Below, in pieces: positions 18,716-39,559 of a stretch of DNA of 64,000 nucleotides. Numbering within the stretch: position 1 is the first letter of the stretch; the number at the start of each line of letters is the position of its first letter. The notes beneath the pieces were generated by a model. It made no database searches. It was not told where the DNA came from and was given only the letters and a program-made list of their open reading frames with translations. The stretch is from Olleya sp. Hel_I_94 (lineage in GTDB: Bacteria; Bacteroidota; Bacteroidia; Flavobacteriales; Flavobacteriaceae). Both the position numbers and the translations under genes were made by a program. The DNA is taken from contig NZ_VISI01000002.1 of the NCBI RefSeq assembly GCF_007827365.1, positions 315,001 through 379,000 of the forward strand, written 5' to 3'.

Positions 18716-18752
18716 TAAAAAGGCCTTTCTAAATTAGAAAGGCTTTTTTTTT
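18716..18752. terminator. Bidirectional terminator
   Basis: GCCTTTCTA (18723-18731) pairs with TAGAAAGGC (18735-18743), with A-rich sequence before and nine T residues after. It separates the CAP gene from the leftward giant-protein operon. Confidence 0.93.
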
Positions 18753-20697: not shown

Positions 20698-20698
20698 T

Positions 20699-21646
20699 TT
20701 AAAAATATCTTGGTGATTTAACACGTTTTGTAGGTTTAAAGACTTCAAACATTAATAATATTTCATGCGTTCCTCCAGTGTACGGTCTTAGATCTGTTAT
20801 ATAATGCTCATAGGCATAACCAATTCTCATTTGAGGTGATACCTGAAAATCTGCCAACGCACCAATAGTTGATGTATCTCTATTATATCTATAACTTCCA
20901 CCAATCCAAAACTTTTCGTCAAATAGTAAATGTGCACTTAGGTCAAATGATACAGGAGCACCATTAGTTAATTTAACTAATGCAGATGGTTTAAGTTTAG
21001 TAGATTCATTTAATTCAAATACATAACCAGCAGTTAAATAATACCCAACACGCTCTAAAGCGATGTAGTCTACTTCTGGATCTAAAGCACTTTCGTTATA
21101 ATCTGTATTCAATATTCTTGGAGCAGATAAACCAACGTACCATTTGTTTTGATGTAAATAAGCACCAACACCAACATTTGGGTTCCATCTATTTGTAAAA
21201 TTACTAAAGAAAGGGTCTATCGCTACTGTTGGATCATCTAGAAAACCTTCTTGGTCTAGGTTATAATGAGTAAATCCAGCTTTTAAACCAAATGCCAATT
21301 TTGTTTTTTCAGAAAGCTCAATAGTGTAAGAAAAATCACCATAGGCATAAACAAAATTTTCGTAACCTAATTCGTCATTAATAATAGATAGTCCTAAACC
21401 TATTTTCTCATTTTTTAATGGCGCATGTATAGAAACCGTTGATGTTGTTGGAGCACCAGCTAATCCAACCCATTGACTTCTATGTAGACCTACCACACTA
21501 ATAGTTTCTCTACTTCCAGCATATGCTGGATTTATTGAAATAGTATTAAACATGTATTGCGAAAATTGGGGCAACTGTTGTGCTAATAGTTGTGCTGAAC
21601 TACATATAAACACTAGAGCAATACTGAATATATTTATTTTTTTCAT
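20699..21646 (-). CDS. PorP/SprF-family outer-membrane protein
   Basis: This 315-residue protein has a signal peptide (MKKINIFSIALVFICSSAQ, then LLAQ). The family opening QLPQFSQYMFNTISINPAYA runs into GSRETISVVGLHRSQWVGL, followed by amphipathic strands of an outer-membrane barrel. Members such as SprF are needed for secretion of a specific partner bearing a type B sorting domain, and their gene usually lies directly downstream of the cargo gene. Here the giant protein gene ends 9 bases upstream, so this is very likely its dedicated secretion partner. Its stop codon lies next to the start of the OmpA-family gene. Confidence 0.93.
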   Translation of the reverse strand: MKKINIFSIALVFICSSAQLLAQQLPQFSQYMFNTISINPAYAGSRETISVVGLHRSQWVGLAGAPTTSTVSIHAPLKNEKIGLGLSIINDELGYENFVYAYGDFSYTIELSEKTKLAFGLKAGFTHYNLDQEGFLDDPTVAIDPFFSNFTNRWNPNVGVGAYLHQNKWYVGLSAPRILNTDYNESALDPEVDYIALERVGYYLTAGYVFELNESTKLKPSALVKLTNGAPVSFDLSAHLLFDEKFWIGGSYRYNRDTSTIGALADFQVSPQMRIGYAYEHYITDLRPYTGGTHEILLMFEVFKPTKRVKSPRYF

Positions 21647-21655
21647 TTATAATCG

Positions 21656-24600
21656 TTATTTAGTTCCTAAATAAAGAGGACCAGCTAATGGTTTAATACC
21701 ACTATCTTTTATATCTATTACGTAATAATATGTTCCGTTTGGTAACCTTCCTGCAGATCCTACTGAACCGCTTGGGCTTTGACCATTCCAATTGTTTTGG
21801 TAATCTCTAGATTCGTAAACAATATCTCCAAATCGGTTAAAGATTTTTATGTCGATAATAAATCCACATTCTTCAACACCACCTACAGTGAAAAATTCGT
21901 TATAAGCATCACCATTTGGTGTTACAGCTTTAGAAATTTTTAAATCATCTTCACCACATGGTAAAACGGTACAATCATCATGAATAGTTATTGTTAATTC
22001 GAAAGTATTTAAACAACCGTTATTTAAAGTAGTGTAAGTGAATACATAATCACCAAGCTCAACTTCTAATGGGTCAAAAATACCATCTATTATTGTAACA
22101 CCTTCAGTAACTGCAACCCATTCTATAGTGTTATCCGAAACTTCTGGTAAATAATCATATAAATCAATTAAACCATCTTCGATACATTTTTCACCTTCTA
22201 AAGGTGTTGTAAAGTTTTCTGTTATCACATTAATTGTATGAGTAATCACATTTTCATTTCCACAATCATCGGTAGCAGTCCATGTCCAAATGATATCATA
22301 AATCTCTTCTTCACCAGTAAATGTAGTTGTTTCGTTAAATTCAACTGTGACTGGGTTTAAAGAACAAGTGTCTTCAAAGTCTAATTGTGGTACCTCTGGT
22401 ACATTAGAACATATTACACTACTTGGTAAATCTAATGTACTTAATAATGCTGGACCAGTTGTGTCTTCTAGAGTAAGTGTAGCAGTTAACTGAGAAGTGT
22501 TACCACAATCATCAGCTACAGTATAAGTAACAGTAATAGTACCACTAGTACCACAAGTTGACACTAAGTTAGCAAAGTCGTAATCAGACGTTACAGTATT
22601 AGTTGGATCAACATCACAAGTATCAGTACCACAAGATTGAAGCGCAGTCATGTTTTCTGTATTCCAAGCATCAGCAATTGTTTGGTTATCTGTTCCACCA
22701 CATTCGATAGTTTCATCAATCACAGTACAAGCAGTTAAGTCAGGACCAGTTGTGTCTTCTAGAGTAAGAGTAGCAGTTAACTGAGAAGTGTTACCACAAT
22801 CATCAGCTACAGTATAAGTAACAGTAATTGTACCACTAGCACCACACGTTGATACTAAGTTAGCAAAGTCGTAATCAGACGTTACAGTATTAGTTGGATC
22901 AACATCACAAGTATCAGTACCACAAGATTGAAGCGCAGTCATGTTTTCTGCATTCCAAGCATCAGCAATTGTTTGGTTATCTGTTCCACCACATTCGATA
23001 GTTTCATCAATCACAGTACAAGCAGTTAAGTCAGGACCAGTTGTGTCTTCTAGAGTAAGTGTAGCAGTTAACTGAGAAGTGTTACCACAATCATCAGCTA
23101 CAGTATAAGTAACAGTAATTGTACCACTAGCACCACAAGTTGACACTAAGTTAGCAAAGTCGTAATCAGACGTTACAGTATTAGTTGGATCAACATCACA
23201 AGTATCAGTACCACAAGATTGAAGCGCAGTCATGTTTTCTGCATTCCAAGCATCAGCAATTGTTTGGTTATCTGTTCCACCACATTCGATAGTTTCATCA
23301 ATCACAGTACAAGCAGTTAAGTCAGGACCAGTTGTGTCTTCTAGAGTAAGTGTAGCAGTTAACTGAGAAGTGTTACCACAATCATCAGCTACAGTATAAG
23401 TAACAGTAATTGTACCACTAGCACCACAAGTTGATACTAAGTTAGCAAAGTCGTAATCAGACGTTACAGTATTAGTTGGATCAACATCACAAGTATCAGT
23501 ACCACAAGATTGAAGCGCAGTCATGTTTTCTGCATTCCAAGCATCAGCAATTGTTTGGTTATCTGTTCCACCACATTCGATAGTTTCATCAATCACAGTA
23601 CAAGCAGTTAAGTCAGGACCAGTTGTGTCTTCTATTGTGATTGTAGCAGTATAAATACTAAAGTTTCCAGTAGCATCCGTAAGAGTATAAGTTACTAGGA
23701 TTGTTCCACTATTTCCACATGTAGATATTAGATTATTATAATCGAAATCAGATGTAACTTCTATATTATCATCACAAGCATCAGTAGCACAATTCTCTAA
23801 AGCTAATATGTTAGCATTATCCCAATTTGTTGCTAGTTCTAAGTTATTATCTCCATTACATTCGATAGTCTCATCTAGTATTTCACAAGTAGAGGTATCA
23901 GGAGGAGTAATATCTTCTATTAATTCAGTTGTTATTTGATCAGTATTAGTCACTATTTCACCATTAACAATTATAACAGCATTTACTGTTGCTATATTAG
24001 TTACTTCTGTAGCATCTATATCTATTTGAGTAACTAAATATGTCGCAGTATAGATCCAAGTTTCAGTTGGCTCTAAGATATTATTGTTGTTTAAGTCTCC
24101 AGATATTAATGAAATAGTTACCGCAGGAATAGCATTATCTAATAATGAATCCGTTATAATAATGTTACCTAATGAAACATTACCAGTGTTTGTAACAGTG
24201 AAAGTATAAGATATAGTTTCATCAATTTCAGTACATTCATTGTCATTATCATTATTGAAAACACCAGTTTTAACAATATTTATTGAGCCTGTTGGAGGAC
24301 AGAACATTACGTCTGTATTATTTTCATCAATCACGTAAGTATCATTAGCAGAAACTTCAGTGTTATTAAGAATCTCATTACTAGTTACTGTTACGGTGTT
24401 AGTAATTACACCAGCATCAATATCCGCTTGAGTTACGGTGTAGTTAGGAGCAGTAAAGATCCAAGTTTCCGTAGGTTCTAATACACCATTAGTGTTAGTA
24501 TCACCAGACAGGGTTACATCCGCAGTAATATCACCACCTAATAATGTATCGTTAATAGTTACTGTATTAATAGACACAGTACCAGTATTAGTCACAGTGA

Positions 24601-27600
24601 AAGTATATGTTACTTCACTATCTAAAGCAAGACACGCATCACCATTAGCAATAGCAGCCGACTTCACGATATTTAAACCAGATGTTGGATCACAGAAGGT
24701 AACGTCTGTATTATTTTCATCAATCACGTAAGTATCATTAGCAGAAACTTCAGTGTTATTAAGAATCTCATTACCAGTTACTGTTACGGTGTTAGTAATT
24801 ACACCAGCATCAATATCCGCTTGAGTTACGGTGTAGTTAGGAGCAGTAAAGATCCAAGTTTCCGTAGGTTCTAATACACCATTAGTGTTAGTATCACCAG
24901 ACAGGGTTACATCCGCAGTAATATCACCACCTAATAACGTATCGTTAATAGTTACTGTATTAATAGACACAGTACCAGTATTAGTCACAGTGAAAGTATA
25001 TGTTACTTCACTATCTAAAGCAAGACACGCATCACCATTAGCAATAGTTGCTGACTTCACGATATTTAAACCAGATGTTGGATCACAGAAGGTAACGTCT
25101 GTATTATTTTCATCAATCACGTAAGTATCATTAGCAGAAACTTCAGTGTTATTAAGAATCTCATTACCAGTTACTGTTACGGTGTTAGTAATTACACCAG
25201 CATCAATATCCGCTTGAGTTACGGTGTAGTTAGGAGCAGTAAAGATCCAAGTTTCCGTAGGTTCTAATACACCATTAGTGTTAGTATCACCAGACAGGGT
25301 TACATCCGCAGTAATATCACCACCTAATAACGTATCGTTAATAGTTACTGTATTAATAGACACAGTACCAGTATTAGTCACAGTGAAAGTATACGTTACT
25401 TCACTATCTAAAGCAAGACACGCATCACCATTAGCAATAGCAGCCGACTTCACGATATTTAAACCAGATGTTGGATCACAGAAGGTAACTTCTGTATTAT
25501 TTTCATCAATCACGTAAGTATCATTAGCAGAAACTTCAGTGTTATTAAGAATCTCATTACCAGTTACTGTTACGGTGTTAGTAATTACACCAGCATCAAT
25601 ATCCGCTTGAGTTACGGTGTAGTTAGGAGCAGTAAAGATCCAAGTTTCCGTAGGTTCTAATACACCATTAGTGTTAGTATCACCAGACAGGGTTACATCC
25701 GCAGTAATATCACCACCTAATAATGTATCGTTAATAGTTACTGTATTAATAGACACAGTACCAGTATTAGTCACAGTGAAAGTATATGTTACTTCACTAT
25801 CTAAAGCAAGACACGCATCACCATTAGCAATAGCAGCCGACTTCACGATATTTAAACCAGATGTTGGATCACAGAAGGTAACGTCTGTATTATTTTCATC
25901 AATCACGTAAGTATCATTAGCAGAAACTTCAGTGTTATTAAGAATCTCATTACCAGTTACTGTTACGGTGTTAGTAATTACACCAGCATCAATATCCGCT
26001 TGAGTTACGGTGTAGTTAGGAGCAGTAAAGATCCAAGTTTCCGTAGGTTCTAATACACCATTAGTGTTAGTATCACCAGACAGGGTTACATCCGCAGTAA
26101 TATCACCACCTAATAACGTATCGTTAATAGTTACTGTATTAATAGACACAGTACCAGTATTAGTCACAGTGAAAGTATATGTTACTTCACTATCTAAAGC
26201 AAGACACGCATCACCATTAGCAATAGTTGCTGACTTCACGATATTTAAACCAGATGTTGGATCACAGAAGGTAACGTCTGTATTATTTTCATCAATCACG
26301 TAAGTATCATTAGCAGAAACTTCAGTGTTATTAAGAATCTCATTACCAGTTACTGTTACGGTGTTAGTAATTACACCAGCATCAATATCCGCTTGAGTTA
26401 CGGTGTAGTTAGGAGCAGTAAAGATCCAAGTTTCCGTAGGTTCTAATACACCATTAGTGTTAGTATCACCAGACAGGGTTACATCCGCAGTAATATCACC
26501 ACCTAATAACGTATCGTTAATAGTTACTGTATTAATAGACACAGTACCAGTATTAGTCACAGTGAAAGTATACGTTACTTCACTATCTAAAGCAAGACAC
26601 GCATCACCATTAGCAATAGCAGCCGACTTCACGATATTTAAACCAGATGTTGGATCACAGAAGGTAACTTCTGTATTATTTTCATCAATCACGTAAGTAT
26701 CATTAGCAGAAACTTCAGTGTTATTAAGAATCTCATTACCAGTTACTGTTACGGTGTTAGTAATTACACCAGCATCAATATCCGCTTGAGTTACGGTGTA
26801 GTTAGGAGCAGTAAAGATCCAAGTTTCCGTAGGTTCTAATACACCATTAGTGTTAGTATCACCAGACAGGGTTACATCCGCAGTAATATCACCACCTAAT
26901 AACGTATCGTTAATAGTTACTGTATTAATAGACACAGTACCAGTATTAGTCACAGTGAAAGTATACGTTACTTCACTATCTAAAGCAAGACACGCATCAC
27001 CATTAGCAATAGCAGCCGACTTCACGATATTTAAACCAGATGTTGGATCACAGAAGGTAACTTCTGTATTATTTTCATCAATCACGTAAGTATCATTAGC
27101 AGAAACTTCAGTGTTATTAAGAATCTCATTACCAGTTACTGTTACGGTGTTAGTAATTACACCAGCATCAATATCCGCTTGAGTTACGGTGTAGTTAGGA
27201 GCAGTAAAGATCCAAGTTTCCGTAGGTTCTAATACACCATTAGTGTTAGTATCACCAGACAGGGTTACATCCGCAGTAATATCACCACCTAATAACGTAT
27301 CGTTAATAGTTACTGTATTAATAGACACAGTACCAGTATTAGTCACAGTGAAAGTATATGTTACTTCACTATCTAAAGCAAGACACGCATCACCATTAGC
27401 AATAGTTGCTGACTTCACGATATTTAAACCAGATGTTGGATCACAGAAGGTAACGTCTGTATTATTTTCATCAATCACGTAAGTATCATTAGCAGAAACT
27501 TCAGTGTTATTAAGAATCTCATTACCAGTTACTGTTACGGTGTTAGTAATTACACCAGCATCAATATCCGCTTGAGTTACGGTGTAGTTAGGAGCAGTAA

Positions 27601-30600
27601 AGATCCAAGTTTCCGTAGGTTCTAATACACCATTAGTGTTAGTATCACCAGACAGGGTTACATCCGCAGTAATATCACCACCTAATAACGTATCGTTAAT
27701 AGTTACTGTATTAATAGACACAGTACCAGTATTAGTCACAGTGAAAGTATATGTTACTTCACTATCTAAAGCAAGACACGCATCACCATTAGCAATAGTT
27801 GCTGACTTCACGATATTTAAACCAGATGTTGGATCACAGAAGGTAACGTCTGTATTATTTTCATCAATCACGTAAGTATCATTAGCAGAAACTTCAGTGT
27901 TATTAAGAATCTCATTACCAGTTACTGTTACGGTGTTAGTAATTACACCAGCATCAATATCCGCTTGAGTTACGGTGTAGTTAGGAGCAGTAAAGATCCA
28001 AGTTTCCGTAGGTTCTAATACACCATTAGTGTTAGTATCACCAGATAGGGTTACATCCGCAGTAATATCACCACCTAATAACGTATCGTTAATAGTTACT
28101 GTATTAATAGACACAGTACCAGTATTAGTCACAGTGAAAGTATATGTTACTTCACTATCTAAAGCAAGACAGGCATCACCATTAGCAATAGCAGCCGACT
28201 TCACGATATTTAAACCAGATGTTGGATCACAGAAGGTAACGTCTGTATTATTTTCATCAATCACGTAAGTATCATTAGCAGAAACTTCAGTGTTATTAAG
28301 AATCTCATTACCAGTTACTGTTACTGTGTTAGTAATTACACCAGCATCAATATCCGCTTGAGTCACGGTGTAGTTAGGAGCAGTAAAGATCCAAGTTTCC
28401 GTAGGTTCTAATACACCATTAGTGTTAGTATCACCAGACAGGGTTACATCCGCAGTAATATCACCACCTAATAACGTATCGTTAATAGTTACTGTATTAA
28501 TAGACACAGTACCAGTATTAGTCACAGTGAAAGTATATGTTACTTCACTATCTAAAGAAAGACAGGCATCACCATTAGCAATAGCAGCTGACTTCACGAT
28601 ATTTAAACCAGATGTTGGATCACAGAAGGTAACGTCTGTATTATTTTCATCAATCACGTAAGTATCATTAGCAGAAACTTCAGTGTTATTAAGAATCTCA
28701 TTACCAGTTACTGTTACTGTGTTAGTAATTACACCAGCATCAATATCCGCTTGAGTCACGGTGTAGTTAGGAGCAGTAAAGATCCAAGTTTCCGTAGGTT
28801 CTAATACACCATTAGTGTTAGTATCACCAGACAGGGTTACATCCGCAGTAATATCACCACCTAATAACGTATCGTTAATAGTTACTGTATTAATAGACAC
28901 AGTACCAGTATTAGTCACAGTGAAAGTATATGTTACTTCACTATCTAAAGCAAGACACGCATCACCATTAGCAATAGTTGCTGACTTCACGATATTTAAA
29001 CCAGATGTTGGATCACAGAAGGTAACGTCTGTATTATTTTCATCAATCACGTAAGTATCATTAGCAGAAACTTCAGTGTTATTAAGAATCTCATTACCAG
29101 TTACTGTTACTGTGTTAGTAATTACACCAGCATCAATATCCGCTTGAGTCACGGTGTAGTTAGGAGCAGTAAAGATCCAAGTTTCTGTAGGTTCTAATAC
29201 ACCATTAGTGTTAGTATCACCAGACAGGGTTACATCCGCAGTAATATCACCACCTAATAACGTATCGTTAATAGTTACTGTATTAATAGACACAGTACCA
29301 GTATTAGTCACAGTGAAAGTATATGTTACTTCACTATCTAAAGCAAGACAGGCATCACCATTAGCAATAGTTGCTGACTTCACGATATTTAAACCAGATG
29401 TTGGATCACAGAAGGTAACGTCTGTATTATTTTCATCAATCACGTAAGTATCATTAGCAGAAACTTCAGTGTTATTAAGAATCTCATTACCAGTTACTGT
29501 TACTGTGTTAGTAATTACACCAGCATCAATATCCGCTTGAGTCACGGTGTAGTTAGGAGCAGTAAAGATCCAAGTTTCTGTAGGTTCTAATACACCATTA
29601 GTGTTAGTATCACCAGATAGGGTTACATCCGCAGTAATATCACCACCTAATAACGTATCGTTAATAGTTACTGTATTAATAGACACAGTACCAGTATTAG
29701 TCACAGTGAAAGTATATGTTACTTCACTATCTAAAGCAAGACAGGCATCACCATTAGCAATAGTTGCTGACTTCACGATATTTAAACCAGATGTTGGATC
29801 ACAGAAGGTAACGTCTGTATTATTTTCATCAATCACGTAAGTATCATTAGCAGAAACTTCAGTGTTATTAAGAATCTCATTACCAGTTACTGTTACTGTG
29901 TTAGTAATTACACCAGCATCAATATCCGCTTGAGTCACGGTGTAGTTAGGAGCAGTAAAGATCCAAGTTTCTGTAGGTTCTAATACACCATTAGTGTTAG
30001 TATCACCAGATAGGGTTACATCCGCAGTAATATCACCACCTAATAACGTATCGTTAATAGTTACTGTATTAATAGACACAGTACCAGTATTAGTCACAGT
30101 GAAAGTATATGTTACTTCACTATCTAAAGCAAGACAGGCATCACCATTAGCAATAGCAGCCGACTTCACGATATTTAAACCGTTGGTAGGAGTACAGAAT
30201 GAAATTTCAGTATTATTTTCATCAATTACAAAAGTATCATTTGCAGAAACCGTTGTAATTCCATCAGGTTCTAGACCGACAATTGAAACTGAGTTAGTTA
30301 TCAAACCAGAATCAATATCAGCTTGAGTTACAATATAATTAGGAGCTGTAAAAATCCAAGTTTCAGTTGGAGCAAGGAAACCGTCTCCATTAGTATCTCC
30401 TGAAAGTGTTACATCAGCAGTAATATCACCACCTAATAACGTATCGTTAATAGTTACTGTATTAATAGACACAGTACCAGTATTAGTCACAGTGAAAGTA
30501 TATGTTACTTCACTATCTAAAGCAAGACACGCATCACCATTAGCAATAGTTGCTGACTTCACGATATTTAAACCAGATGTTGGATCACAGAAGGTAACGT

Positions 30601-33600
30601 CTGTATTATTTTCATCAATCACGTAAGTATCATTAGCAGAAACTTCAGTGTTATTAAGAATCTCATTACCAGTTACTGTTACTGTGTTAGTAATTACACC
30701 AGCATCAATATCCGCTTGAGTCACGGTGTAGTTAGGAGCAGTAAAGATCCAAGTTTCCGTAGGTTCTAATACACCATTAGTGTTAGTATCTCCTGAAAGT
30801 GTTACATCAGCAGTAATATCACCACCTAATAACGTATCGTTAATAGTTACTGTATTAATAGACACAGTACCAGTATTAGTCACAGTGAAAGTATATGTTA
30901 CTTCACTATCTAAAGCAAGACACGCATCACCATTAGCAATAGTTGCTGACTTCACGATATTTAAACCAGATGTTGGATCACAGAAGGTAACGTCTGTATT
31001 ATTTTCATCAATCACGTAAGTATCATTAGCAGAAACTTCAGTGTTATTAAGAATCTCATTACCAGTTACTGTTACTGTGTTAGTAATTACACCAGCATCA
31101 ATATCCGCTTGAGTCACGGTGTAGTTAGGAGCAGTAAAGATCCAAGTTTCTGTAGGTTCTAATACACCATTAGTGTTAGTATCACCAGACAGGGTTACAT
31201 CCGCAGTAATATCACCACCTAATAACGTATCGTTAATAGTTACTGTATTAATAGACACAGTACCAGTATTAGTCACAGTGAAAGTATATGTTACTTCACT
31301 ATCTAAAGCAAGACACGCATCACCATTAGCAATAGTTGCTGACTTCACGATATTTAAACCAGATGTTGGATCACAGAAGGTAACGTCTGTATTATTTTCA
31401 TCAATCACGTAAGTATCATTAGCAGAAACTTCAGTGTTATTAAGAATCTCATTACCAGTTACTGTTACTGTGTTAGTAATTACACCAGCATCAATATCCG
31501 CTTGAGTCACGGTGTAGTTAGGAGCAGTAAAGATCCAAGTTTCTGTAGGTTCTAATACACCATTAGTGTTAGTATCACCAGATAGGGTTACATCCGCAGT
31601 AATATCACCACCTAATAACGTATCGTTAATAGTTACTGTATTAATAGACACAGTACCAGTATTAGTCACAGTGAAAGTATATGTTACTTCACTATCTAAA
31701 GCAAGACACGCATCACCATTAGCAATAGTTGCTGACTTCACGATATTTAAACCAGATGTTGGATCACAGAAGGTAACGTCTGTATTATTTTCATCAATCA
31801 CGTAAGTATCATTAGCAGAAACTTCAGTGTTATTAAGAATCTCATTACCAGTTACTGTTACTGTGTTAGTAATTACACCAGCATCAATATCCGCTTGAGT
31901 CACGGTGTAGTTAGGAGCAGTAAAGATCCAAGTTTCTGTAGGTTCTAATACACCATTAGTGTTAGTATCACCAGATAGGGTTACATCCGCAGTAATATCA
32001 CCACCTAATAACGTATCGTTAATAGTTACTGTATTAATAGACACAGTACCAGTATTAGTCACAGTGAAAGTATATGTTACTTCACTATCTAAAGCAAGAC
32101 AGGCATCACCATTAGCAATAGCAGCCGACTTCACGATATTTAAACCGTTGGTAGGAGTACAGAATGAAATTTCAGTATTATTTTCATCAATTACAAAAGT
32201 ATCATTTGCAGAAACCGTTGTAATTCCATCAGGTTCTAGACCGACAATTGAAACTGAGTTAGTTATCAAACCAGAATCAATATCAGCTTGAGTTACAATA
32301 TAATTAGGAGCTGTAAAAATCCAAGTTTCAGTTGGAGCAAGGAAACCGTCTCCATTAGTATCTCCTGAAAGTGTTACATCAGCAGTAATATTACCACCTA
32401 ACAAGGTATCAGTAATAGTGAATGAATTTATTAATAAATCACCAGGGTTCGTAACGGTGAAAGTAAAAACTAATATATCTTCAGCGACAATACAAAAATT
32501 ACCATTAGCATTATATGCTGATTTTACAACATTAAGTCCAGCAACACCATCAACTGTAAGGTATACAGTAGCTTGATCACAAGCTTGAGGCGTTCCGTTA
32601 TCACAGATAGTGTATACAAAAGAATCCGTTCCTACATAACCAGCATTAGGTGTATAAGTAAAGACACCAGTATTAGCATCGATAGTTACTGTTACACCTT
32701 GAGCAGTAGTAACTGTAGTTGTAGTTACTGTTTGAGTGTTACCTTCGATATCATTATCATTTTCTAAAACATTACCAGTTAAAGGTGTTGTTGGTGTTGT
32801 ATTGTAAGCGTCATCATTCGCATTAGTTGTATTAGGTGTTCCATCTGGCTGCACAGTAACAGTTACAGTTGCAGTGTCACAAAGCGCAGGCGAAGCGTTA
32901 TCACAAATAGTATATTCAAAAGTATCTTCACCAATAAACCCATCATTAGGTGTATAGGTAATAGTCCCATCAGTATTAACAGTAACGGTTCCGTTATCAG
33001 GCGTTGTATTATTAGTAATAATAATAGGATCAGCATCTGGATCAAAGTCGTTAGCTAAGACCACAATATCTACAGGAGTACCTTCAGGTGTGGTTGCAGT
33101 ATCAGCATTAGCAATAGGTGCTTCGTTTTCAGGACCACTTTCAGGTAAAACTTCGATGTATACAGTTGCAGTATCACAAGCTTGAGGATTACCATCATCA
33201 CAGATTGTGTAAGTAAAAGTATCTTCGCCAGTAAAACCAGCATTAGGCGTATAGGTATAATTACCAGCATCATCAATAGTTACCGAACCATTAGTTGGAT
33301 TAGTATTAGCAGTTACTGTTTGAATATCACCTTCAAAATCTTCATCGTTAGTTAATACATTACCAGAGACCGCTTGTCCAACAAATGTATTGTTGATATC
33401 AGCGATAGCGTCAGTAGTATTAGCAATACCACCAACTGTAAGGTATACAGTAGCTTGATCACAAGCTTGAGGCGTTCCGTTATCACAGATAGTGTATACA
33501 AAAGAATCCGTTCCTACATAACCAGCATTAGGTGTATAAGTAAAGACACCAGTATTAGCATCGATAGTTACTGTTACCCCTTGAGCAGTAGTAACTGTAG

Positions 33601-36600
33601 TTGTAGTAACAATTTGAGTGTTACCTTCGATATCATTATCATTTTCTAAAACATTACCAGTTAAAGGTGTTGTTGGTGTCGTATTGTAAGCATCGTCATT
33701 CGCATTAGTTGTGTTAGGTGTTCCATCTGGCTGCACAGTAACAGTTACAGTTGCAGTGTCACAAAGCGCAGGCGAAGCGTTATCACAAATAGTATATTCA
33801 AAAGTATCTTCACCAATAAACCCATCATTAGGTGTATAGGTAATAGTCCCATCAGTATTAACAGTAACGGTTCCGTTATCAGGCGTTGTATTATTAGTAA
33901 TAATAATAGTATCAGCATCTGGATCAAAGTCGTTAGCTAAGACCACAATATCCACAGGAGTACCTTCAGGCGTTGTTGCAGTATCAGCATTAGCAATAGG
34001 TGCTTCGTTTTCAGGACCACTTTCAGGTAAAACTTCGATGTATACAGTTGCGGTATCACAAGCTTGAGGATTACCATCATCACAGATTGTGTAAGTAAAA
34101 GTATCTTCGCCAGTAAAACCAGCATTAGGCGTATAGGTATAATTACCAGCAGCATCAATAGTTACCGAACCATTAGTTGGATTAGTATTAGCAGTTACTG
34201 TTTGAATATCACCTTCAAAATCTTCATCGTTAGTTAATACATTACCAGAGACCGCTTGTCCAACAAATGTATTGTTGATATCAGCGATAGCATCAGTAGT
34301 ATTAGCAATACCACCAACTGTAAGGTATACAGTAGCTTGATCACAAGCTTGAGGCGTTCCGTTATCACAGATAGTATATACAAAAGAATCCGTTCCTACA
34401 TAACCAGCATTAGGTGTATAAGTAAAGACACCAGTATTAGCATCGATAGTTACTGTTACCCCTTGAGCAGTAGTAACTGTAGTTGTAGTAACAATTTGAG
34501 TGTTACCTTCGATATCATTATCATTTTCTAAAACATTACCAGTTAAAGGTGTTGTTGGTGTCGTATTGTAAGCATCGTCATTCGCATTAGTTGTGTTAGG
34601 TGTTCCATCTGGCTGCACAGTAACAGTTACAGTTGCAGTGTCACAAAGCGCAGGCGAAGCGTTATCACAAATAGTATATTCAAAAGTATCTTCACCAATA
34701 AACCCATCATTAGGTGTATAGGTAATAGTCCCATCAGTATTAACAGTAACGGTTCCGTTATCAGGCGTTGTATTATTAGTAATAATAATAGTATCAGCAT
34801 CTGGATCAAAGTCGTTAGCTAAGACCACAATATCCACAGGAGTACCTTCAGGCGTTGTTGCAGTATCAGCATTAGCAATAGGTGCTTCGTTTTCAGGACC
34901 ACTTTCAGGTAAAACTTCGATGTATACAGTTGCGGTATCACAAGCTTGAGGATTACCATCATCACAGATTGTGTAAGTAAAAGTATCTTCGCCAGTAAAA
35001 CCAGCATTAGGCGTATAGGTATAATTACCAGCAGCATCAATAGTTACCGAACCATTAGTTGGATTAGTATTAGCAGTTACTGTTTGAATATCACCTTCAA
35101 AATCTTCATCGTTAGTTAATACATTACCAGAGACCGCTTGTCCAACAAATGTATTGTTGATATCAGCGATAGCATCAGTAGTATTAGCAATACCACCAAC
35201 TGTAAGGTATACAGTAGCTTGATCACAAGCTTGAGGCGTTCCGTTATCACAGATAGTATATACAAAAGAATCCGTTCCTACATAACCAGCATTAGGTGTA
35301 TAAGTAAAGACACCAGTATTAGCATCGATAGTTACTGTTACCCCTTGAGCAGTAGTAACTGTAGTTGTAGTTACTGTTTGAGTGTTACCTTCGATATCAT
35401 TATCATTTTCTAAAACATTACCAGTTAAAGGTGTTGTTGGTGTTGTATTGTAAGCGTCATCATTCGCATTAGTTGTGTTAGGTGTTCCATCTGGCTGCAC
35501 AGTAACAGTTACAGTTGCAGTGTCACAAAGCGCAGGCGAAGCGTTATCACAAATAGTATATTCAAAAGTATCTTCACCAATAAACCCATCATTAGGTGTA
35601 TAGGTAATAGTCCCATCAGTATTAACAGTAACGGTTCCGTTATCAGGCGTTGTATTATTAGTAATAATAATAGGATCAGCATCTGGATCAAAGTCGTTAG
35701 CTAAGACCACAATATCCACAGGAGTACCTTCAGGCGTTGTTGCAGTATCAGCATTAGCAATAGGTGCTTCGTTTTCAGGACCACTTTCAGGTAAAACTTC
35801 GATGTATACAGTTGCGGTATCACAAGCTTGAGGATTACCATCATCACAGATTGTGTAAGTAAAAGTATCTTCGCCAGTAAAACCAGCATTAGGCGTATAG
35901 GTATAATTACCAGCAGCATCAATAGTTACCGAACCATTAGTTGGATTAGTATTAGCAGTTACTGTTTGAATATCACCTTCAAAATCTTCATCGTTAGTTA
36001 ATACATTACCAAAGACCGCTTGTCCAACAAATGTATTGTTGATATCAGCGATAGCGTCAGTACAGTTAGAAAGAATTTCTGCAGATAAAGTAGTAGAACA
36101 TTCATTAGCGTCTAATACTATAATAGAATAATTACCAGCTGCTAAATCATTTATCGTAGCGTTTGATGTATATGTTGTACCACCATCAATGGAGTATGTA
36201 TAAGGTAAAGAACCTCCAGAAACAGCAATATTTATAGTACCTGTGGCTTCTGTTGAACATAAAATATTAGTTACAGAATCAATTGATGCAGTTAAGACAG
36301 GTTGGTTTACAGTGATAACTTGAGTATGAGATGTTGTCAAGTCACAAGCATCTGTAGCAATCCATTCTCTTGTTATTGTTTGGTTACCAGTACAAATGTC
36401 TCCAACAATTTCTTCATTAAATGTAACTATGGCATCACCACAATTATCAGTCGCTGTTAAAATAGGAGCATCAGGAATATTATCTCCATCTACTGTTGTA
36501 TTAGTTGGTAAAGTCTCGACAAAAGTTGGAGGAGTAGTATCTTGAACATTTATTGTTAATGTTCTGATAGTTTCATTTCCACAATCATCAGTTGCTGTCC

Positions 36601-39559
36601 AAGTTCTTTCTAAAGTGTAAGTGTTTGGACAATCACCATCAGTTCTTATTTCGTTAAAAGTTACTGTTGCATTACTACAACTATCAGTAGCAGTAAGTAC
36701 TTCAGGATCTTCTAAATCACTACATTCCAGCGTTATTTCATCAGTTATTGTACTTGGGTTAGTGTAATTTGAAATACAAGCAAACTCTATATTATGTTGT
36801 CTTAAATTACCTGAAACATTAGCTTTTCTGGCTACAATTCCTACTCTAAATCTAAATGAGGTTGTATTTGTGTTTCTAGTAGTAATATTAGCTTGCGGAT
36901 ATATATTAGTTACACCTGTATATTCAGTTGTTCCTGCTGTTGCCACAATCCAAGGACCTTCTTCAGTAATAGTTAAATCTGTTGGATCATTTACGGTATA
37001 ACTATTTGTAAATTGTGTCCAGTTTACTTCTCCAAAATTTGCATTTCCATCAATATCACTAAAAGTCGTATAAAATTCTGGTAAAGGTGTTGGTTGATTA
37101 TTTGTATTATCAATAAAATCTATTTGATATTCAGTGTAAGCTCTATCACCAATATTAGTTAAATTAAATGCTGTTTGAGGTCTAAAAGAGTCTACACTAC
37201 CATTACCATTATCATCCAATAAAGGTACTGTTGTATTTATAGTAGCAAGTATTGTTACTACAGCATCCACACCTGGAGATACATTAGTAAACCTAAATTT
37301 TTCACCTTGTAAAAAGGTGTTATTATTACCATCTCCTAAAACTTCTGTATAATTTGCAAAACTTAAAACCGGAACATCAATGCAAGAAGGTTGATCGTTA
37401 TTAGTATCATTAGGAAATCCGTCAAAAGTTGGACCAACAGTATCTTCTATTGTGAAAGTAGCTGTCGTTGAAGATGAATTTCCACAAACGTCAGAAGCAG
37501 TAAAAGTAACTGTAGTAGATCCTGTTACACCACAATCATTGCTTAAGTTACTATAATTATTTGACCATGTTACAGCACTACAATTATCTGTAGCAGTAGC
37601 ACTACCATTGGTAGCTAACCAATTATTAAATGCAGCTTGACTATTTTGATCACATTGTACTGTAAAGTCAAAAGCATTTGTATCTATAACTGGAGCTGTA
37701 GTATCTTTAACTGTAATTATTTGAACATAATTATCAATTGTACGTCCACAAGAATCAGTAAAATTCCAAGTGTTTGTGTAAGTACCTAAAGTTGGACAAT
37801 TATTAGAAGGAACAAAAGTACCCGAAGTTTTGATTGGTGTTAAACCAGGACACGAGGATACAGGTGCTAAAGCTTGCGCATTGCTTAATGCTGTTGGATT
37901 GTTACATTCTATTTCTCTATCTAAAGCAGATGTAGCTGTTACCCATGTTGCTGGTGCAGGTGCATTGATGGTTACAAGTGTATTTAAAGTATTACCAACA
38001 CCACATCCATTAATTCCGTTGTGACTGCCACTAGAAATATTTTTAGGATTTATTTGTCCGATATAAGTGGCTACTAAATTAGAATCAAATGTACCAGAAC
38101 AATTATTTTGTAAATAATAACAATTATCGTTAACAGACAAATTATAACTTAAACTTATAGATTGACTTGCTTCCAAAACACCATTTGGAACCATAAAAGT
38201 TAAAGTTCTAGTGGTATTATTGTAAGTGTAAGTTATACCAGATGATAAACCAGTTATTGGAAGATTAAGTTCAGCTCCATTAGGTATAACTGTGGTTAAT
38301 GATACACCATTAGCATTATCATTTCCAACATTAGTTACATTTGCTGTGTAGGTGATTGTTTGTGGACTATTTGTTGGTGTAATTAAAGTTGGTGTTGCTG
38401 TAAAAATTGTCTGTAATTCTGGTTGATATATTTCAACAGAAAAACCTAAAACAAATAAGCCATAGGTTTCTTGATTAGACGTTAATCTAAGTGTAGTAGA
38501 GGTTTGGTTATTAGTTAATAACGAATTACCAGGGTTATTTAAAGGGAAAACAGCAGCGTCAAAACCTAAAGTATTTGTGCTCGCTGGATTTCTGTCAGTA
38601 AAATTATTTGCTCCATTACTTGGTCCTACAGTAATCCTACTATTAAAAAAGTTGTTAGCGTCTCTTAATGGTGCAGATATATCAACAAATGTATTTGATG
38701 AATTTAATATTTGTAATCGGTCTCCTGTCAAAGATCTATCTCCTTCAAGTGCTCCAATAACAATGTCAGATTGTACAATTCCATTTGGTACTGTTTGAAA
38801 ACCAGAAATATTAATATCAAAATTGTTTTGAGTACTAGTAACATTAGCGTAACCATCAAAAAGCGTTATGTTTCTAGCTTTTAATTTATCACTTTTATAG
38901 ACCATTATTACCTGCCATCCACCAGATGTACCAGTGTTGGTGTTTTCATGTGATACTAAAAATCCAGTTTTAGCCTCTACATTGGCAACCTGATATTTAC
39001 CAAAAGGGTTTCCTAAATTTTTAACACTATTAGTTATGTCCTTAACGCATACATAAGGATCATTATTTAAATGTGGATTTTGATTTTTACCTCTATATAT
39101 TACCTCGTCTGCATTTATAGTAGTATATGTGGTTTGACCTGGAAGCATCAATTTTACATTGTTATAATTCCAGTTAGGTTGATTTTCGGTTTCTATTCCA
39201 GCAACGTCAATACCTTTATCTGCTGCTGCCCAATACAATAGAACTTTGTCAATTACTAAACAACTGTCGTTTGGATATGGATTGGTTAAATTGGCACTAC
39301 TAGAATTAAAAGTACTAGCATCACTATCAATGTCAACATAAACGTTGTCCACAAAATCATGATTGTCCTGCTCTCCATTATAACTTCCTGTGGTCGTTCT
39401 AGACAACATGTTGTTTCCTACCATTTTTACATCTCCATTAATAGAGGCACTGTAACGAGGTGTAAAGACTTTTTTTACTTGAGCTTGCAGACTAAAGCTA
39501 ATTAAAAGGACTCCTAAAATTAGTAACCTTTTTGTGTAATTTGTTTTCAATATATTCAA
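21656..39559 (-). CDS. Giant repetitive T9SS surface protein, gliding-motility (type B) C-terminal domain
   Basis: This protein of about 5967 residues is predicted to be exported and surface-displayed. After a signal peptide (LLILGVLLISFSLQAQ) comes a unique N-terminal domain (about 28-385), a DUF11-like domain and HYR/Ig-like domains to about 1165. Then come four 294-residue units of three Ig/cadherin-like domains each (about 1167-2342), twenty-two 131-residue DUF11-like units (about 2343-5224) and five Cys-rich 88-97-residue HYR-like units (about 5225-5700). After a spacer, the C-terminal about 100 residues (ISKAVTPNGDAYNEFF, KIFNRFGDIVYES, LPNGTYYYVIDI) form the gliding-motility-associated sorting domain. 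The start must be TTG (39559, or TTG at 39550), as a stop lies two codons upstream. The locus resembles that of the SprB adhesin but is not an evident ortholog. Confidence 0.93.
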   Translation of the reverse strand: MNILKTNYTKRLLILGVLLISFSLQAQVKKVFTPRYSASINGDVKMVGNNMLSRTTTGSYNGEQDNHDFVDNVYVDIDSDASTFNSSSANLTNPYPNDSCLVIDKVLLYWAAADKGIDVAGIETENQPNWNYNNVKLMLPGQTTYTTINADEVIYRGKNQNPHLNNDPYVCVKDITNSVKNLGNPFGKYQVANVEAKTGFLVSHENTNTGTSGGWQVIMVYKSDKLKARNITLFDGYANVTSTQNNFDINISGFQTVPNGIVQSDIVIGALEGDRSLTGDRLQILNSSNTFVDISAPLRDANNFFNSRITVGPSNGANNFTDRNPASTNTLGFDAAVFPLNNPGNSLLTNNQTSTTLRLTSNQETYGLFVLGFSVEIYQPELQTIFTATPTLITPTNSPQTITYTANVTNVGNDNANGVSLTTVIPNGAELNLPITGLSSGITYTYNNTTRTLTFMVPNGVLEASQSISLSYNLSVNDNCYYLQNNCSGTFDSNLVATYIGQINPKNISSGSHNGINGCGVGNTLNTLVTINAPAPATWVTATSALDREIECNNPTALSNAQALAPVSSCPGLTPIKTSGTFVPSNNCPTLGTYTNTWNFTDSCGRTIDNYVQIITVKDTTAPVIDTNAFDFTVQCDQNSQAAFNNWLATNGSATATDNCSAVTWSNNYSNLSNDCGVTGSTTVTFTASDVCGNSSSTTATFTIEDTVGPTFDGFPNDTNNDQPSCIDVPVLSFANYTEVLGDGNNNTFLQGEKFRFTNVSPGVDAVVTILATINTTVPLLDDNGNGSVDSFRPQTAFNLTNIGDRAYTEYQIDFIDNTNNQPTPLPEFYTTFSDIDGNANFGEVNWTQFTNSYTVNDPTDLTITEEGPWIVATAGTTEYTGVTNIYPQANITTRNTNTTSFRFRVGIVARKANVSGNLRQHNIEFACISNYTNPSTITDEITLECSDLEDPEVLTATDSCSNATVTFNEIRTDGDCPNTYTLERTWTATDDCGNETIRTLTINVQDTTPPTFVETLPTNTTVDGDNIPDAPILTATDNCGDAIVTFNEEIVGDICTGNQTITREWIATDACDLTTSHTQVITVNQPVLTASIDSVTNILCSTEATGTINIAVSGGSLPYTYSIDGGTTYTSNATINDLAAGNYSIIVLDANECSTTLSAEILSNCTDAIADINNTFVGQAVFGNVLTNDEDFEGDIQTVTANTNPTNGSVTIDAAGNYTYTPNAGFTGEDTFTYTICDDGNPQACDTATVYIEVLPESGPENEAPIANADTATTPEGTPVDIVVLANDFDPDADPIIITNNTTPDNGTVTVNTDGTITYTPNDGFIGEDTFEYTICDNASPALCDTATVTVTVQPDGTPNTTNANDDAYNTTPTTPLTGNVLENDNDIEGNTQTVTTTTVTTAQGVTVTIDANTGVFTYTPNAGYVGTDSFVYTICDNGTPQACDQATVYLTVGGIANTTDAIADINNTFVGQAVSGNVLTNDEDFEGDIQTVTANTNPTNGSVTIDAAGNYTYTPNAGFTGEDTFTYTICDDGNPQACDTATVYIEVLPESGPENEAPIANADTATTPEGTPVDIVVLANDFDPDADTIIITNNTTPDNGTVTVNTDGTITYTPNDGFIGEDTFEYTICDNASPALCDTATVTVTVQPDGTPNTTNANDDAYNTTPTTPLTGNVLENDNDIEGNTQIVTTTTVTTAQGVTVTIDANTGVFTYTPNAGYVGTDSFVYTICDNGTPQACDQATVYLTVGGIANTTDAIADINNTFVGQAVSGNVLTNDEDFEGDIQTVTANTNPTNGSVTIDAAGNYTYTPNAGFTGEDTFTYTICDDGNPQACDTATVYIEVLPESGPENEAPIANADTATTPEGTPVDIVVLANDFDPDADTIIITNNTTPDNGTVTVNTDGTITYTPNDGFIGEDTFEYTICDNASPALCDTATVTVTVQPDGTPNTTNANDDAYNTTPTTPLTGNVLENDNDIEGNTQIVTTTTVTTAQGVTVTIDANTGVFTYTPNAGYVGTDSFVYTICDNGTPQACDQATVYLTVGGIANTTDAIADINNTFVGQAVSGNVLTNDEDFEGDIQTVTANTNPTNGSVTIDDAGNYTYTPNAGFTGEDTFTYTICDDGNPQACDTATVYIEVLPESGPENEAPIANADTATTPEGTPVDIVVLANDFDPDADPIIITNNTTPDNGTVTVNTDGTITYTPNDGFIGEDTFEYTICDNASPALCDTATVTVTVQPDGTPNTTNANDDAYNTTPTTPLTGNVLENDNDIEGNTQTVTTTTVTTAQGVTVTIDANTGVFTYTPNAGYVGTDSFVYTICDNGTPQACDQATVYLTVDGVAGLNVVKSAYNANGNFCIVAEDILVFTFTVTNPGDLLINSFTITDTLLGGNITADVTLSGDTNGDGFLAPTETWIFTAPNYIVTQADIDSGLITNSVSIVGLEPDGITTVSANDTFVIDENNTEISFCTPTNGLNIVKSAAIANGDACLALDSEVTYTFTVTNTGTVSINTVTINDTLLGGDITADVTLSGDTNTNGVLEPTETWIFTAPNYTVTQADIDAGVITNTVTVTGNEILNNTEVSANDTYVIDENNTDVTFCDPTSGLNIVKSATIANGDACLALDSEVTYTFTVTNTGTVSINTVTINDTLLGGDITADVTLSGDTNTNGVLEPTETWIFTAPNYTVTQADIDAGVITNTVTVTGNEILNNTEVSANDTYVIDENNTDVTFCDPTSGLNIVKSATIANGDACLALDSEVTYTFTVTNTGTVSINTVTINDTLLGGDITADVTLSGDTNTNGVLEPTETWIFTAPNYTVTQADIDAGVITNTVTVTGNEILNNTEVSANDTYVIDENNTDVTFCDPTSGLNIVKSATIANGDACLALDSEVTYTFTVTNTGTVSINTVTINDTLLGGDITADVTLSGDTNTNGVLEPTETWIFTAPNYTVTQADIDAGVITNTVTVTGNEILNNTEVSANDTYVIDENNTDVTFCDPTSGLNIVKSATIANGDACLALDSEVTYTFTVTNTGTVSINTVTINDTLLGGDITADVTLSGDTNGDGFLAPTETWIFTAPNYIVTQADIDSGLITNSVSIVGLEPDGITTVSANDTFVIDENNTEISFCTPTNGLNIVKSAAIANGDACLALDSEVTYTFTVTNTGTVSINTVTINDTLLGGDITADVTLSGDTNTNGVLEPTETWIFTAPNYTVTQADIDAGVITNTVTVTGNEILNNTEVSANDTYVIDENNTDVTFCDPTSGLNIVKSATIANGDACLALDSEVTYTFTVTNTGTVSINTVTINDTLLGGDITADVTLSGDTNTNGVLEPTETWIFTAPNYTVTQADIDAGVITNTVTVTGNEILNNTEVSANDTYVIDENNTDVTFCDPTSGLNIVKSATIANGDACLALDSEVTYTFTVTNTGTVSINTVTINDTLLGGDITADVTLSGDTNTNGVLEPTETWIFTAPNYTVTQADIDAGVITNTVTVTGNEILNNTEVSANDTYVIDENNTDVTFCDPTSGLNIVKSATIANGDACLALDSEVTYTFTVTNTGTVSINTVTINDTLLGGDITADVTLSGDTNTNGVLEPTETWIFTAPNYTVTQADIDAGVITNTVTVTGNEILNNTEVSANDTYVIDENNTDVTFCDPTSGLNIVKSAAIANGDACLSLDSEVTYTFTVTNTGTVSINTVTINDTLLGGDITADVTLSGDTNTNGVLEPTETWIFTAPNYTVTQADIDAGVITNTVTVTGNEILNNTEVSANDTYVIDENNTDVTFCDPTSGLNIVKSAAIANGDACLALDSEVTYTFTVTNTGTVSINTVTINDTLLGGDITADVTLSGDTNTNGVLEPTETWIFTAPNYTVTQADIDAGVITNTVTVTGNEILNNTEVSANDTYVIDENNTDVTFCDPTSGLNIVKSATIANGDACLALDSEVTYTFTVTNTGTVSINTVTINDTLLGGDITADVTLSGDTNTNGVLEPTETWIFTAPNYTVTQADIDAGVITNTVTVTGNEILNNTEVSANDTYVIDENNTDVTFCDPTSGLNIVKSATIANGDACLALDSEVTYTFTVTNTGTVSINTVTINDTLLGGDITADVTLSGDTNTNGVLEPTETWIFTAPNYTVTQADIDAGVITNTVTVTGNEILNNTEVSANDTYVIDENNTEVTFCDPTSGLNIVKSAAIANGDACLALDSEVTYTFTVTNTGTVSINTVTINDTLLGGDITADVTLSGDTNTNGVLEPTETWIFTAPNYTVTQADIDAGVITNTVTVTGNEILNNTEVSANDTYVIDENNTEVTFCDPTSGLNIVKSAAIANGDACLALDSEVTYTFTVTNTGTVSINTVTINDTLLGGDITADVTLSGDTNTNGVLEPTETWIFTAPNYTVTQADIDAGVITNTVTVTGNEILNNTEVSANDTYVIDENNTDVTFCDPTSGLNIVKSATIANGDACLALDSEVTYTFTVTNTGTVSINTVTINDTLLGGDITADVTLSGDTNTNGVLEPTETWIFTAPNYTVTQADIDAGVITNTVTVTGNEILNNTEVSANDTYVIDENNTDVTFCDPTSGLNIVKSAAIANGDACLALDSEVTYTFTVTNTGTVSINTVTINDTLLGGDITADVTLSGDTNTNGVLEPTETWIFTAPNYTVTQADIDAGVITNTVTVTGNEILNNTEVSANDTYVIDENNTEVTFCDPTSGLNIVKSAAIANGDACLALDSEVTYTFTVTNTGTVSINTVTINDTLLGGDITADVTLSGDTNTNGVLEPTETWIFTAPNYTVTQADIDAGVITNTVTVTGNEILNNTEVSANDTYVIDENNTDVTFCDPTSGLNIVKSATIANGDACLALDSEVTYTFTVTNTGTVSINTVTINDTLLGGDITADVTLSGDTNTNGVLEPTETWIFTAPNYTVTQADIDAGVITNTVTVTGNEILNNTEVSANDTYVIDENNTDVTFCDPTSGLNIVKSAAIANGDACLALDSEVTYTFTVTNTGTVSINTVTINDTLLGGDITADVTLSGDTNTNGVLEPTETWIFTAPNYTVTQADIDAGVITNTVTVTSNEILNNTEVSANDTYVIDENNTDVMFCPPTGSINIVKTGVFNNDNDNECTEIDETISYTFTVTNTGNVSLGNIIITDSLLDNAIPAVTISLISGDLNNNNILEPTETWIYTATYLVTQIDIDATEVTNIATVNAVIIVNGEIVTNTDQITTELIEDITPPDTSTCEILDETIECNGDNNLELATNWDNANILALENCATDACDDNIEVTSDFDYNNLISTCGNSGTILVTYTLTDATGNFSIYTATITIEDTTGPDLTACTVIDETIECGGTDNQTIADAWNAENMTALQSCGTDTCDVDPTNTVTSDYDFANLVSTCGASGTITVTYTVADDCGNTSQLTATLTLEDTTGPDLTACTVIDETIECGGTDNQTIADAWNAENMTALQSCGTDTCDVDPTNTVTSDYDFANLVSTCGASGTITVTYTVADDCGNTSQLTATLTLEDTTGPDLTACTVIDETIECGGTDNQTIADAWNAENMTALQSCGTDTCDVDPTNTVTSDYDFANLVSTCGASGTITVTYTVADDCGNTSQLTATLTLEDTTGPDLTACTVIDETIECGGTDNQTIADAWNTENMTALQSCGTDTCDVDPTNTVTSDYDFANLVSTCGTSGTITVTYTVADDCGNTSQLTATLTLEDTTGPALLSTLDLPSSVICSNVPEVPQLDFEDTCSLNPVTVEFNETTTFTGEEEIYDIIWTWTATDDCGNENVITHTINVITENFTTPLEGEKCIEDGLIDLYDYLPEVSDNTIEWVAVTEGVTIIDGIFDPLEVELGDYVFTYTTLNNGCLNTFELTITIHDDCTVLPCGEDDLKISKAVTPNGDAYNEFFTVGGVEECGFIIDIKIFNRFGDIVYESRDYQNNWNGQSPSGSVGSAGRLPNGTYYYVIDIKDSGIKPLAGPLYLGTK
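22461..23889 (-). repeat. Tandem repeat, 291 bp, four copies plus one divergent
   Basis: The sequence GTGTCTTCTA on the plus strand recurs at 22461, 22752, 23043, 23334 and 23625, exactly 291 bases apart. Each unit encodes 97 residues of a Cys-rich HYR-like domain (ETIECGGTDNQTIADAWN, then TYTVADDCGNTSQL). The four are nearly identical; the fifth (toward 23889) is clearly diverged. Confidence 0.95.
23889..32534 (-). repeat. Tandem repeat, 393 bp, 22 copies of a DUF11-like domain
   Basis: Twenty central copies recur with a strict 393-base period (for example the plus-strand start points 24492, 24885, 25278 up to 31959) and differ at only a few codons. One divergent copy lies at each end. Each 131-residue unit opens GLNIVKSA, contains VTYTFTVTNTGTVSINTVTI and the loop DTNTNGVLEPTE, and has two cysteines. 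Local variants mark sub-families and past recombination. Confidence 0.96.
30178..32391 (-). repeat. Five-unit (1965 bp) block duplication within the DUF11 array
   Basis: A diverged stretch beginning CCGTTGGTAGGAGTACAGAA occurs at 30180 and at 32145, exactly 1965 bases (5 x 393) apart. Identity continues to 30426/32391 and breaks at the next base. The copy near 30387 is a chimera: canonical unit on one side, terminal-type unit on the other. This marks an unequal crossover that copied five units. Confidence 0.85.
32535..36060 (-). repeat. Tandem repeat, 882 bp, four copies of an Ig-like triplet
   Basis: The 10-mer TATCAGCGAT recurs at 33397, 34279, 35161 and 36043, exactly 882 bases apart. Each unit encodes three Ig/cadherin-like domains with paired cysteines (YTICDDGNPQACDTATV and variants). 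The two inner copies share variants (FDPDADT, NTQI) absent from the outer two (FDPDADP, NTQT). Confidence 0.95.

Follow-up and report, generated by a model that had tools for sequence, protein, structure and literature searches.

Three leftward genes in the window analysed here, a stretch of 64,000 nucleotides from Olleya sp. Hel_I_94, probably make and mount a single static, wall-anchored fibrillar adhesin, a reading that comes from sequence comparison and to which we assign a probability of roughly 70%. The first gene (21656-39559, minus strand) is one unbroken frame with a TTG start and encodes a type B T9SS cargo of 5967 amino acids, a giant fibrillar adhesin. It is followed by the gene for a PorP/SprF-family shuttle of 315 amino acids (20699-21646, minus strand) and then by the gene for a PorE-like protein (18751-20697, minus strand), described from domain matches and an alignment of relatives, with a TPR-propeller-CRD-OmpA layout and no lipobox. 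In our reading of the sequence, 9 nt separate the cargo stop from the PorP ATG and 1 nt separates the PorP stop from the ATG of the PorE-like gene; this ATG, at 20697, is the likely start, and a TTG at 20748 merely lengthens the frame. The first-pass annotation had described three leftward genes at these positions, with a cargo of roughly 6000 residues and a barrel gene 9 bases beyond it, and all of this was confirmed. The locus is not a chance array of frames, because an ortholog of the shuttle is found at 80-100% identity in 10 of the 10 genomes of the genus, its own included. On the downstream side, a gene for a CAP-domain protein (PF00188; 18207-18698, plus strand) converges on the PorE-like gene, which it also adjoins in genomes G007, G008, and G009. 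Near the start of the window lies a gene for a DUF2807 "auto-transporter adhesin head GIN" protein (1448-2218, minus strand), with a 57-bp tandem repeat of 2.6 copies at 1628-1777.

The cargo opens with a signal peptide of about 27 residues (39479-39559, minus strand), read by eye in the translation, with a TTG start that is uncertain by a few codons. An N-terminal head (residues 27-390; 38390-39481) comes next and is common to giant cargos that end in GHFTLYR. Pfam matches and repeat comparison distinguish four 294-aa units of Big_9/cadherin-like domains (32534-36061; 12 Big_9 stretches), the DNA of which is 98.2-99.9% alike over 864 bp, and 22 DUF7507 units (23888-32539), each with one lysine and one EF-hand-like loop; repeat analysis adds four 97-aa units (22457-23620). 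Together these three blocks make up about three quarters of the cargo. The protein had been described as built mostly of DUF11 repeats; the NCBIfam model TIGR01451 ("DUF11 type") does match the same units that Pfam calls DUF7507, but they account for only about half of the protein. Pfam matches on the repeats to, for example, Terminase_2, VIT, and SPASM were attributed to composition and disregarded as artefacts. The final ~270 residues (21656-22468), delimited by an alignment of 46 sequences, form a conserved region that is 72-75% identical to the corresponding part of the cargos of G005, G006, and G008. Profile matches place the predicted type B C-terminal domain (CTD) within it (21680-21940; TIGR04131, 41.0 bits against a cut-off of 35; CHU_C, 71.2 against 27), and the protein ends in GPLYLGTK, not GHFTLYR.

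The three-gene plan is conserved beyond this genome. A PorP frame and a PorE-like frame follow the cargo end in nine out of nine other genomes of the genus. Single-contig assemblies of three of these (G005, G006, and G008) contain whole cargo frames of 3720, 4117, and 7337 residues, with 11, 11, and 38 DUF7507-type units at the same site; the cargos of the other six are cut short by the contig end. The upstream genes are also shared by G005, G006, and G008, where, as in the window (39939-43432, plus strand; copies confirmed with Pfam), divergent genes for a SixA-like histidine phosphatase, a polyphosphate kinase, and Ppx/GppA stand in the same place. Among 80 named loci (L087-L166), a PorE-like frame follows PorP in all 80 and a cargo with a CTD precedes it in 76. 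These loci are not a random sample, as they were the best relatives of an alignment with three of its four rows PorE-linked, and the HMMs in the scripts used for CTD, PorE, and PorP were built from 7, 3, and 4 sequences. Two of the four exceptions (L115 and L143) lie at contig ends, and the other two (L154 and L162) have no CTD frame in 10 kb. The cargo is highly acidic and repetitive (808 D+E against 79 K+R) and rich in threonine (19%), as matrix proteins can be, so one could imagine it released as matrix or filament material that is anchored only temporarily. That CTD region, shuttle, and putative wall-binding partner are kept together in 76 of the 80 loci, and that published members remain on the cell, makes such release very unlikely.

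Contig ends were unevenly distributed around these loci. Within 10 kb of PorP, a contig ends upstream in 50 of the 80 loci and downstream in 14, ten of these being broken on both sides (sign test on the 44 discordant loci, p = 1.7e-8); of the 50 loci broken upstream, 43 have a cargo frame that runs open to the end of the contig. Draft genomes thus lose giant adhesin genes, and giant flavobacterial adhesins are probably under-recorded. The same breaks, along with the near-identity of the repeats, could be taken to mean that the great length of the cargo is an assembly error in the repeat array. We give this very little credence, since the cargo is one unbroken frame and since G005, G006, and G008, each in a single contig, also carry long arrays there; the copy number here is that of the assembly.

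The shuttle matches the PorP/SprF model TIGR03519 over residues 6-301 with 273.1 bits, against a cut-off of 90.55, and the nearest named record, from Mesoflavibacter zeaxanthinifaciens, is 81% identical. A sequence search among solved structures returned no useful relative, and the matches listed look like chance. Its sole cysteine, residue 15, lies in the signal peptide, and the mature protein therefore has neither a cysteine nor a Cys-x-Cys tail. PMC12635249 reports that the Cys-x-Cys tail of SprF is bonded to GldK and that SprF is held to the moving track in this way. The distribution of tail cysteines was accordingly compared with that of PorE-like neighbours. No tail cysteine occurs in either of two sets of PorE-linked shuttles (0 of 43 and 0 of 80, with up to three records possibly common to both). 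Twelve further shuttles, from the collection that gave the 43, have no PorE neighbour; eight of them have a tail cysteine, which in five is part of a Cys-x-Cys motif. The four others are two from Tenacibaculum that stand beside a cargo (L179 and L181) and two long fused frames for which the tail test means little (L187 and L189). In assembling this collection, L073 was dropped because its central position has no shuttle, while L045, L060, and L066 were omitted as repeats of L018, L019, and L020. A search of 60 family genomes yielded 30 loci with SprF-type shuttles, nine of which are also among the head-bearing loci described below. All 30 shuttles have the Cys-x-Cys tail, none has a PorE-like gene within 1.5 kb, and the frame upstream ends in FTLxR in 29. 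In a tree of 55 shuttles, which carries a long-branch warning, the window shuttle falls among the PorE-linked sequences and eight of the 12 others form one clade. Given the missing mature cysteine and the tail counts for PorE-linked shuttles, the cargo is most likely static.

The genome encodes SprA (2720 bits) and GldM (456 bits), along with further export units. TIGR04131 matches the assembly 16 times at E 0.001 or better, 13 times above the cut-off. There are five PorP/SprF genes, and of 17 matches to the PorE model four are full-length PorE-like genes. Each of these four follows a PorP that in turn follows a cargo with a type B-like C-terminus; in two cases (L023 and L024) the CTD scores 33.5 bits, just below the cut-off of 35. 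The L023 and L024 units are 99.0% alike over 3479 bp (L023 5289-8766, L024 5959-9436), covering PorE, PorP, and the last ~180 cargo residues, and share another 3114 bp at 95.6% within the cargo, the first 500 residues of which are 64-66% alike. The likeness is that of recent copying of the export and anchor module, or of gene conversion. The fifth PorP (G000 contig 2, 1691707-1692657; L021 and L025) has a Cys-Asn-Cys tail, no PorE, and no adjacent cargo, the nearest cargo on the same strand lying ~1.5 kb upstream beyond a gene on the opposite strand (L025). By analogy with Fjoh_1677, which serves orphan type B cargos in F. johnsoniae (PMC12618676, in part), this PorP may serve such cargos here.

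The first-pass annotation had read the third gene as an OmpA/TPR/propeller protein matching the PorE domain order, and that order is found in the sequence: TPR_2 (residues 56-85), PD40 (best match 291-318), CarboxypepD_reg (439-520), and OmpA (537-627), with the TPR_2 and CarboxypepD_reg matches just under the Pfam cut-offs. Among OmpA-type matches in a profile search, the best solved relative of the OmpA domain is 6top (E 1e-27), which we take to be the C-terminal domain of PorE. PorE-like matches at E 1e-60 or better were found in at least 53 of 60 family genomes. It falls short of the cut-off of the NCBIfam PorE model NF052230 (327 against 600 bits), and among the matches listed none of the 60 family genomes reaches that cut-off, which may thus be set for other lineages. 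No match above the cut-off was seen elsewhere in this genome that would indicate a canonical PorE. A lipobox pattern was found in none of 28 aligned PorE-like proteins, the window protein included. The proposal that the unit brings its own anchor therefore holds insofar as a PorE-like protein is present, but this protein has no lipid-attachment cysteine and stays below the PorE family cut-off. With such scores and no lipid anchor, its binding to PorP is assumed by homology.

The PorE-like protein might instead act apart from the fibre, for example in outer-membrane integrity, with PorP alone holding the cargo. Along with the missing lipobox, one may cite for this the nearest NCBIfam model, NF053607 (CHU_0125 OmpA family), which matches over the full length and outscores the PorE model (422 against 327 bits), although at 421.8 bits it too is below its cut-off, 620. 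In P. gingivalis, moreover, PorP and cargo still form a complex without PorE, as reported in the available part of PMC9143113, so that PorE may not be needed for export. We nevertheless regard this alternative as unlikely, as the four paralogs of the genome each stand directly after a different PorP and as PorP and PorE co-vary, which points to pairing. Distances among CTD, PorP, and PorE co-vary over 43 triplets (Mantel r 0.928, 0.932, and 0.948, the last for PorP and PorE), the largest value in 999 permutations being 0.172. This co-variation partly reflects shared descent. The paralogous units of the window's genome cluster with orthologs elsewhere for PorP and PorE; the CTD clusters overlap slightly (window cluster, 0.65-1.00 within and 0.66 to others; F. 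pectinovorum trio, 0.53-0.59 within and 0.67 to others). Synteny, co-variation, and published operons of the same type thus lend good support to the idea, raised in the first-pass annotation, of a dedicated export unit for a very long surface fibre.

The N-terminal head (364 residues) has no Pfam match. Matches to it occur in 40 of 60 family genomes at 33-64% identity, and 16 head-bearing loci were fetched from among those listed, mostly for their long frames. The cargo ends in FTLYR or FTLLR at 13 of them and as in the window at two (L210 and L211), and in the remaining case it is cut by the contig end. A PorP gene is present at 13 of the 16 loci: one (L210) has a PorE neighbour and no cysteine, and 12 have no PorE, 11 of these with a Cys-x-Cys tail and one (L205) with a single tail cysteine. 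In F. pectinovorum, the head opens a frame that continues for 2297 residues, while another contig (L194) starts with a cargo end in GHFTLYR, followed by a Cys-Pro-Cys shuttle and a phosphoglycerate-kinase-like gene. From gene order, we infer that these pieces are the two ends of SprB. Two head-bearing units stand side by side in G071 (contig 1, 2179033-2198470; L211 and L219). The first has a 1067-residue frame and a Cys-Asn-Cys shuttle, with no PorE in the 8.8 kb seen downstream; the second has a longer cargo ending in GPIYVGTR, a shuttle without a tail cysteine, and a PorE-like gene. Identity of the first shuttle is 50% with the second, 46% with that of the window, and 28% with the SprF type, which suggests a PorE-linked shuttle from which PorE was lost and to which the tail was added. 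No SprF-type shuttle was found in the genome of the window, the best match being 33% identical. The genome does encode two short head proteins of 530 and 595 amino acids (L215 7554-10349 and 12960-14747). The former directly precedes a phosphoglycerate-kinase-like gene, at the place occupied in F. pectinovorum (L194) by the GHFTLYR cargo end and the SprF-type shuttle, and the two proteins may be what is left of an SprB-type locus. Mesoflavibacter (G011) likewise has a pair of short head frames, of 524 and 574 amino acids.

The homology of the head to giant cargos beside SprF-type shuttles, the presence of GldM, and the Cys-Asn-Cys tail of another shuttle in the genome (L021) would all suit a mobile gliding adhesin of the SprB kind that travels on the GldK/GldJ track and has a PorE-like neighbour only incidentally. 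This is improbable, since the window shuttle has no mature cysteine and sits among PorE-linked shuttles, none of which had a tail cysteine in the sets compared, and since the CTD ends in GPLYLGTK, not GHFTLYR. We return to a static fibre, of which the head could be the binding tip.

The predicted stalk of this static fibre consists largely of DUF7507 units. Searched in two halves, the cargo matches DUF7507 with 240.1 and 963.6 bits (against 27), in 5 and 17 stretches, and the 22 units of the array as assembled are 131-133 residues each. In all, 82 DUF7507-type units were found and 77 were used, five being omitted as incomplete or low-scoring. All 77 full units, which come from four species, have the same K6, D46, and N98 (numbered by alignment column) and the same two cysteines, with exactly one lysine per unit; the last unit of the window array, among the five omitted, is without the second cysteine. 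A sequence search among solved structures gave no useful relative for the unit, the matches listed again looking like chance. The conserved Lys/Asp/Asn set suggests that isopeptide bonds form in the units. DUF7507 is named CLIPPER_2 in the available part of PMC12617251, where Lys72-Asp112-Asn152 is predicted in the example given; matching the triad by place in the repeat, the Lys-Asp spacing is 38-40 here against 40 published and the Asp-Asn spacing ~50 against 40. The Asp-Asn interval of the window units contains an EF-hand-like loop. The pattern used, which permits Asn at the sixth position, occurs 22 times in the window cargo, 38 times in that of G008, 11 in G005, and 10 in G006, with shuffled means of at most 0.04. 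It is also found 12 times in the unrelated cargo of L022 and is absent from those of L023, L024, and L025. Isopeptide bonds and Ca2+ together are predicted to stiffen the stalk. A repeat domain contributes about 4 nm of length, and with some 38 domains counted the fibre could reach about 150 nm. A length of ~200 nm is given for SprB in the available text of PMC12635249.

DUF7507 repeats resemble those of their own genome more than those of others (94% within the window, 77% to G005), and a tree of the 77 units has five changes of genome label, against 32.8 when labels are shuffled. In the window array the first unit clusters with its counterparts at the start of the G005 and G006 arrays, a pattern that would follow if homogenisation does not reach the array ends. 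Comparison of repeat DNA further revealed a chimeric unit (residues 2996-3126; 30182-30574, minus strand) whose sequence is that of a standard unit as far as about base 156 and from there on that of the array-end unit, as left by an unequal exchange. The next four units agree at 98.7-100% with the four that follow the start of the array, which would fit a shift of five units but is weak evidence alone, as most standard units are equally similar. In G006, the first ~800 cargo residues have no DNA match to G005; their protein sequence is similar (45% over 287 residues) to that of another cargo in the genome of the window. Within the genus, then, the export and anchor end is constant and the passenger varies, in frames of 3720 to 7337 residues, by repeat exchange and one replaced front.

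A mechanism for the locus can be proposed, with the export, collection, and anchoring steps taken from published operons of the same type and the stalk, head, and exchange steps from sequence. The cargo would enter the periplasm by way of Sec and, led by its type B CTD, be exported through the SprA translocon. The cognate PorP would collect the CTD at the translocon and retain the fibre in the outer membrane. The PorE-like protein would then fix the fibre to the wall by binding PorP and also, with its OmpA domain, peptidoglycan. As the shuttle has no Cys-x-Cys tail, it should be unable to bond the GldK track, so the fibre would stay in place and not travel. A stalk of ~38 domains, including the 22 DUF7507 units with their putative Lys-Asn isopeptide bonds and Ca2+, would hold out the SprB-type head as a tip. 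Unequal exchange between near-identical repeats would alter the length of the fibre, and its front could be replaced, the export and anchor end remaining fixed.

In the shuttles checked, a Cys-x-Cys tail and a PorE neighbour were never found together, and a shuttle may have neither; as L179 and L181 have neither PorE nor tail cysteine, the rule is "never both" and not "always one". We lean, by a modest degree, towards the view that PorP/SprF shuttles set a fibre moving or fixed by two mutually exclusive anchors, a Cys-x-Cys tail that bonds GldK or a soluble PorE-like partner that holds the wall. As the same head is found on both, exchange of the anchor end could convert a gliding adhesin to a fixed one within a lineage, and the reverse. 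PMC12618676 (2025) raises the question why certain type B adhesins are mobile and others are not, and the locus and its relatives join that question with the grip of the shuttle on the track (PMC12635249). The text of PMC12635249, as far as available, does not mention PorE, and the available part of PMC12618676 does not discuss disulfides; the combined rule was not found in print in the literature searched. This testable rule goes beyond the published accounts found and, if it is true, the behaviour of a type B adhesin could be predicted from sequence, by the tail Cys-x-Cys or the PorE neighbour.

The plan of cargo, shuttle, and PorE-like gene is itself not new, as the kind is already published in F. 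johnsoniae. The available parts of the two papers describe six porP-like genes next to porE-like genes (PMC9143113) and five operons of type B cargo, SprF-like shuttle, and PorE-like gene (PMC12618676) in that species, and both propose that such units are static, unlike SprB. The closest counterpart is Fjoh_3952-Fjoh_3951-Fjoh_3950, which has cargo, shuttle, and PorE-like gene in that order in one operon and whose cargo, Fjoh_3952, was seen only as static foci (PMC12618676). PG1035-PorP-PorE of Porphyromonas gingivalis likewise combines a type B cargo, a PorP/SprF-like shuttle, and a PorE-like protein, and PorE-PorP-cargo complexes have been isolated there (PMC9143113). By description, the window unit differs from both in its 5967-residue cargo, SprB-type head, and DUF7507 stalk, and its PorE-like protein is not a lipoprotein, whereas PorE of P. 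gingivalis is (PMC9143113). The stalk resembles the CLIPPER_2 stalks of PMC12617251, in the part available, in its tandem DUF7507 domains with Lys, Asp, and Asn conserved at matching places, and isopeptide domains are reported there to co-occur with CHU_C. Its units differ in having an EF-hand-like loop in an Asp-Asn interval some 10 residues longer and a Cys pair that is fixed in every full unit, with 22 copies in the window cargo. With SprB-SprF of F. johnsoniae the locus shares a giant type B cargo and a shuttle directly downstream. The likeness to SprB that had been suggested for it stands for the N-terminal head, by way of the GHFTLYR cargos beside Cys-x-Cys shuttles whose SprB identity comes from gene order, but does not extend to the CTD ending, to the class of shuttle, which lacks the Cys-x-Cys tail, or to the PorE-like partner.
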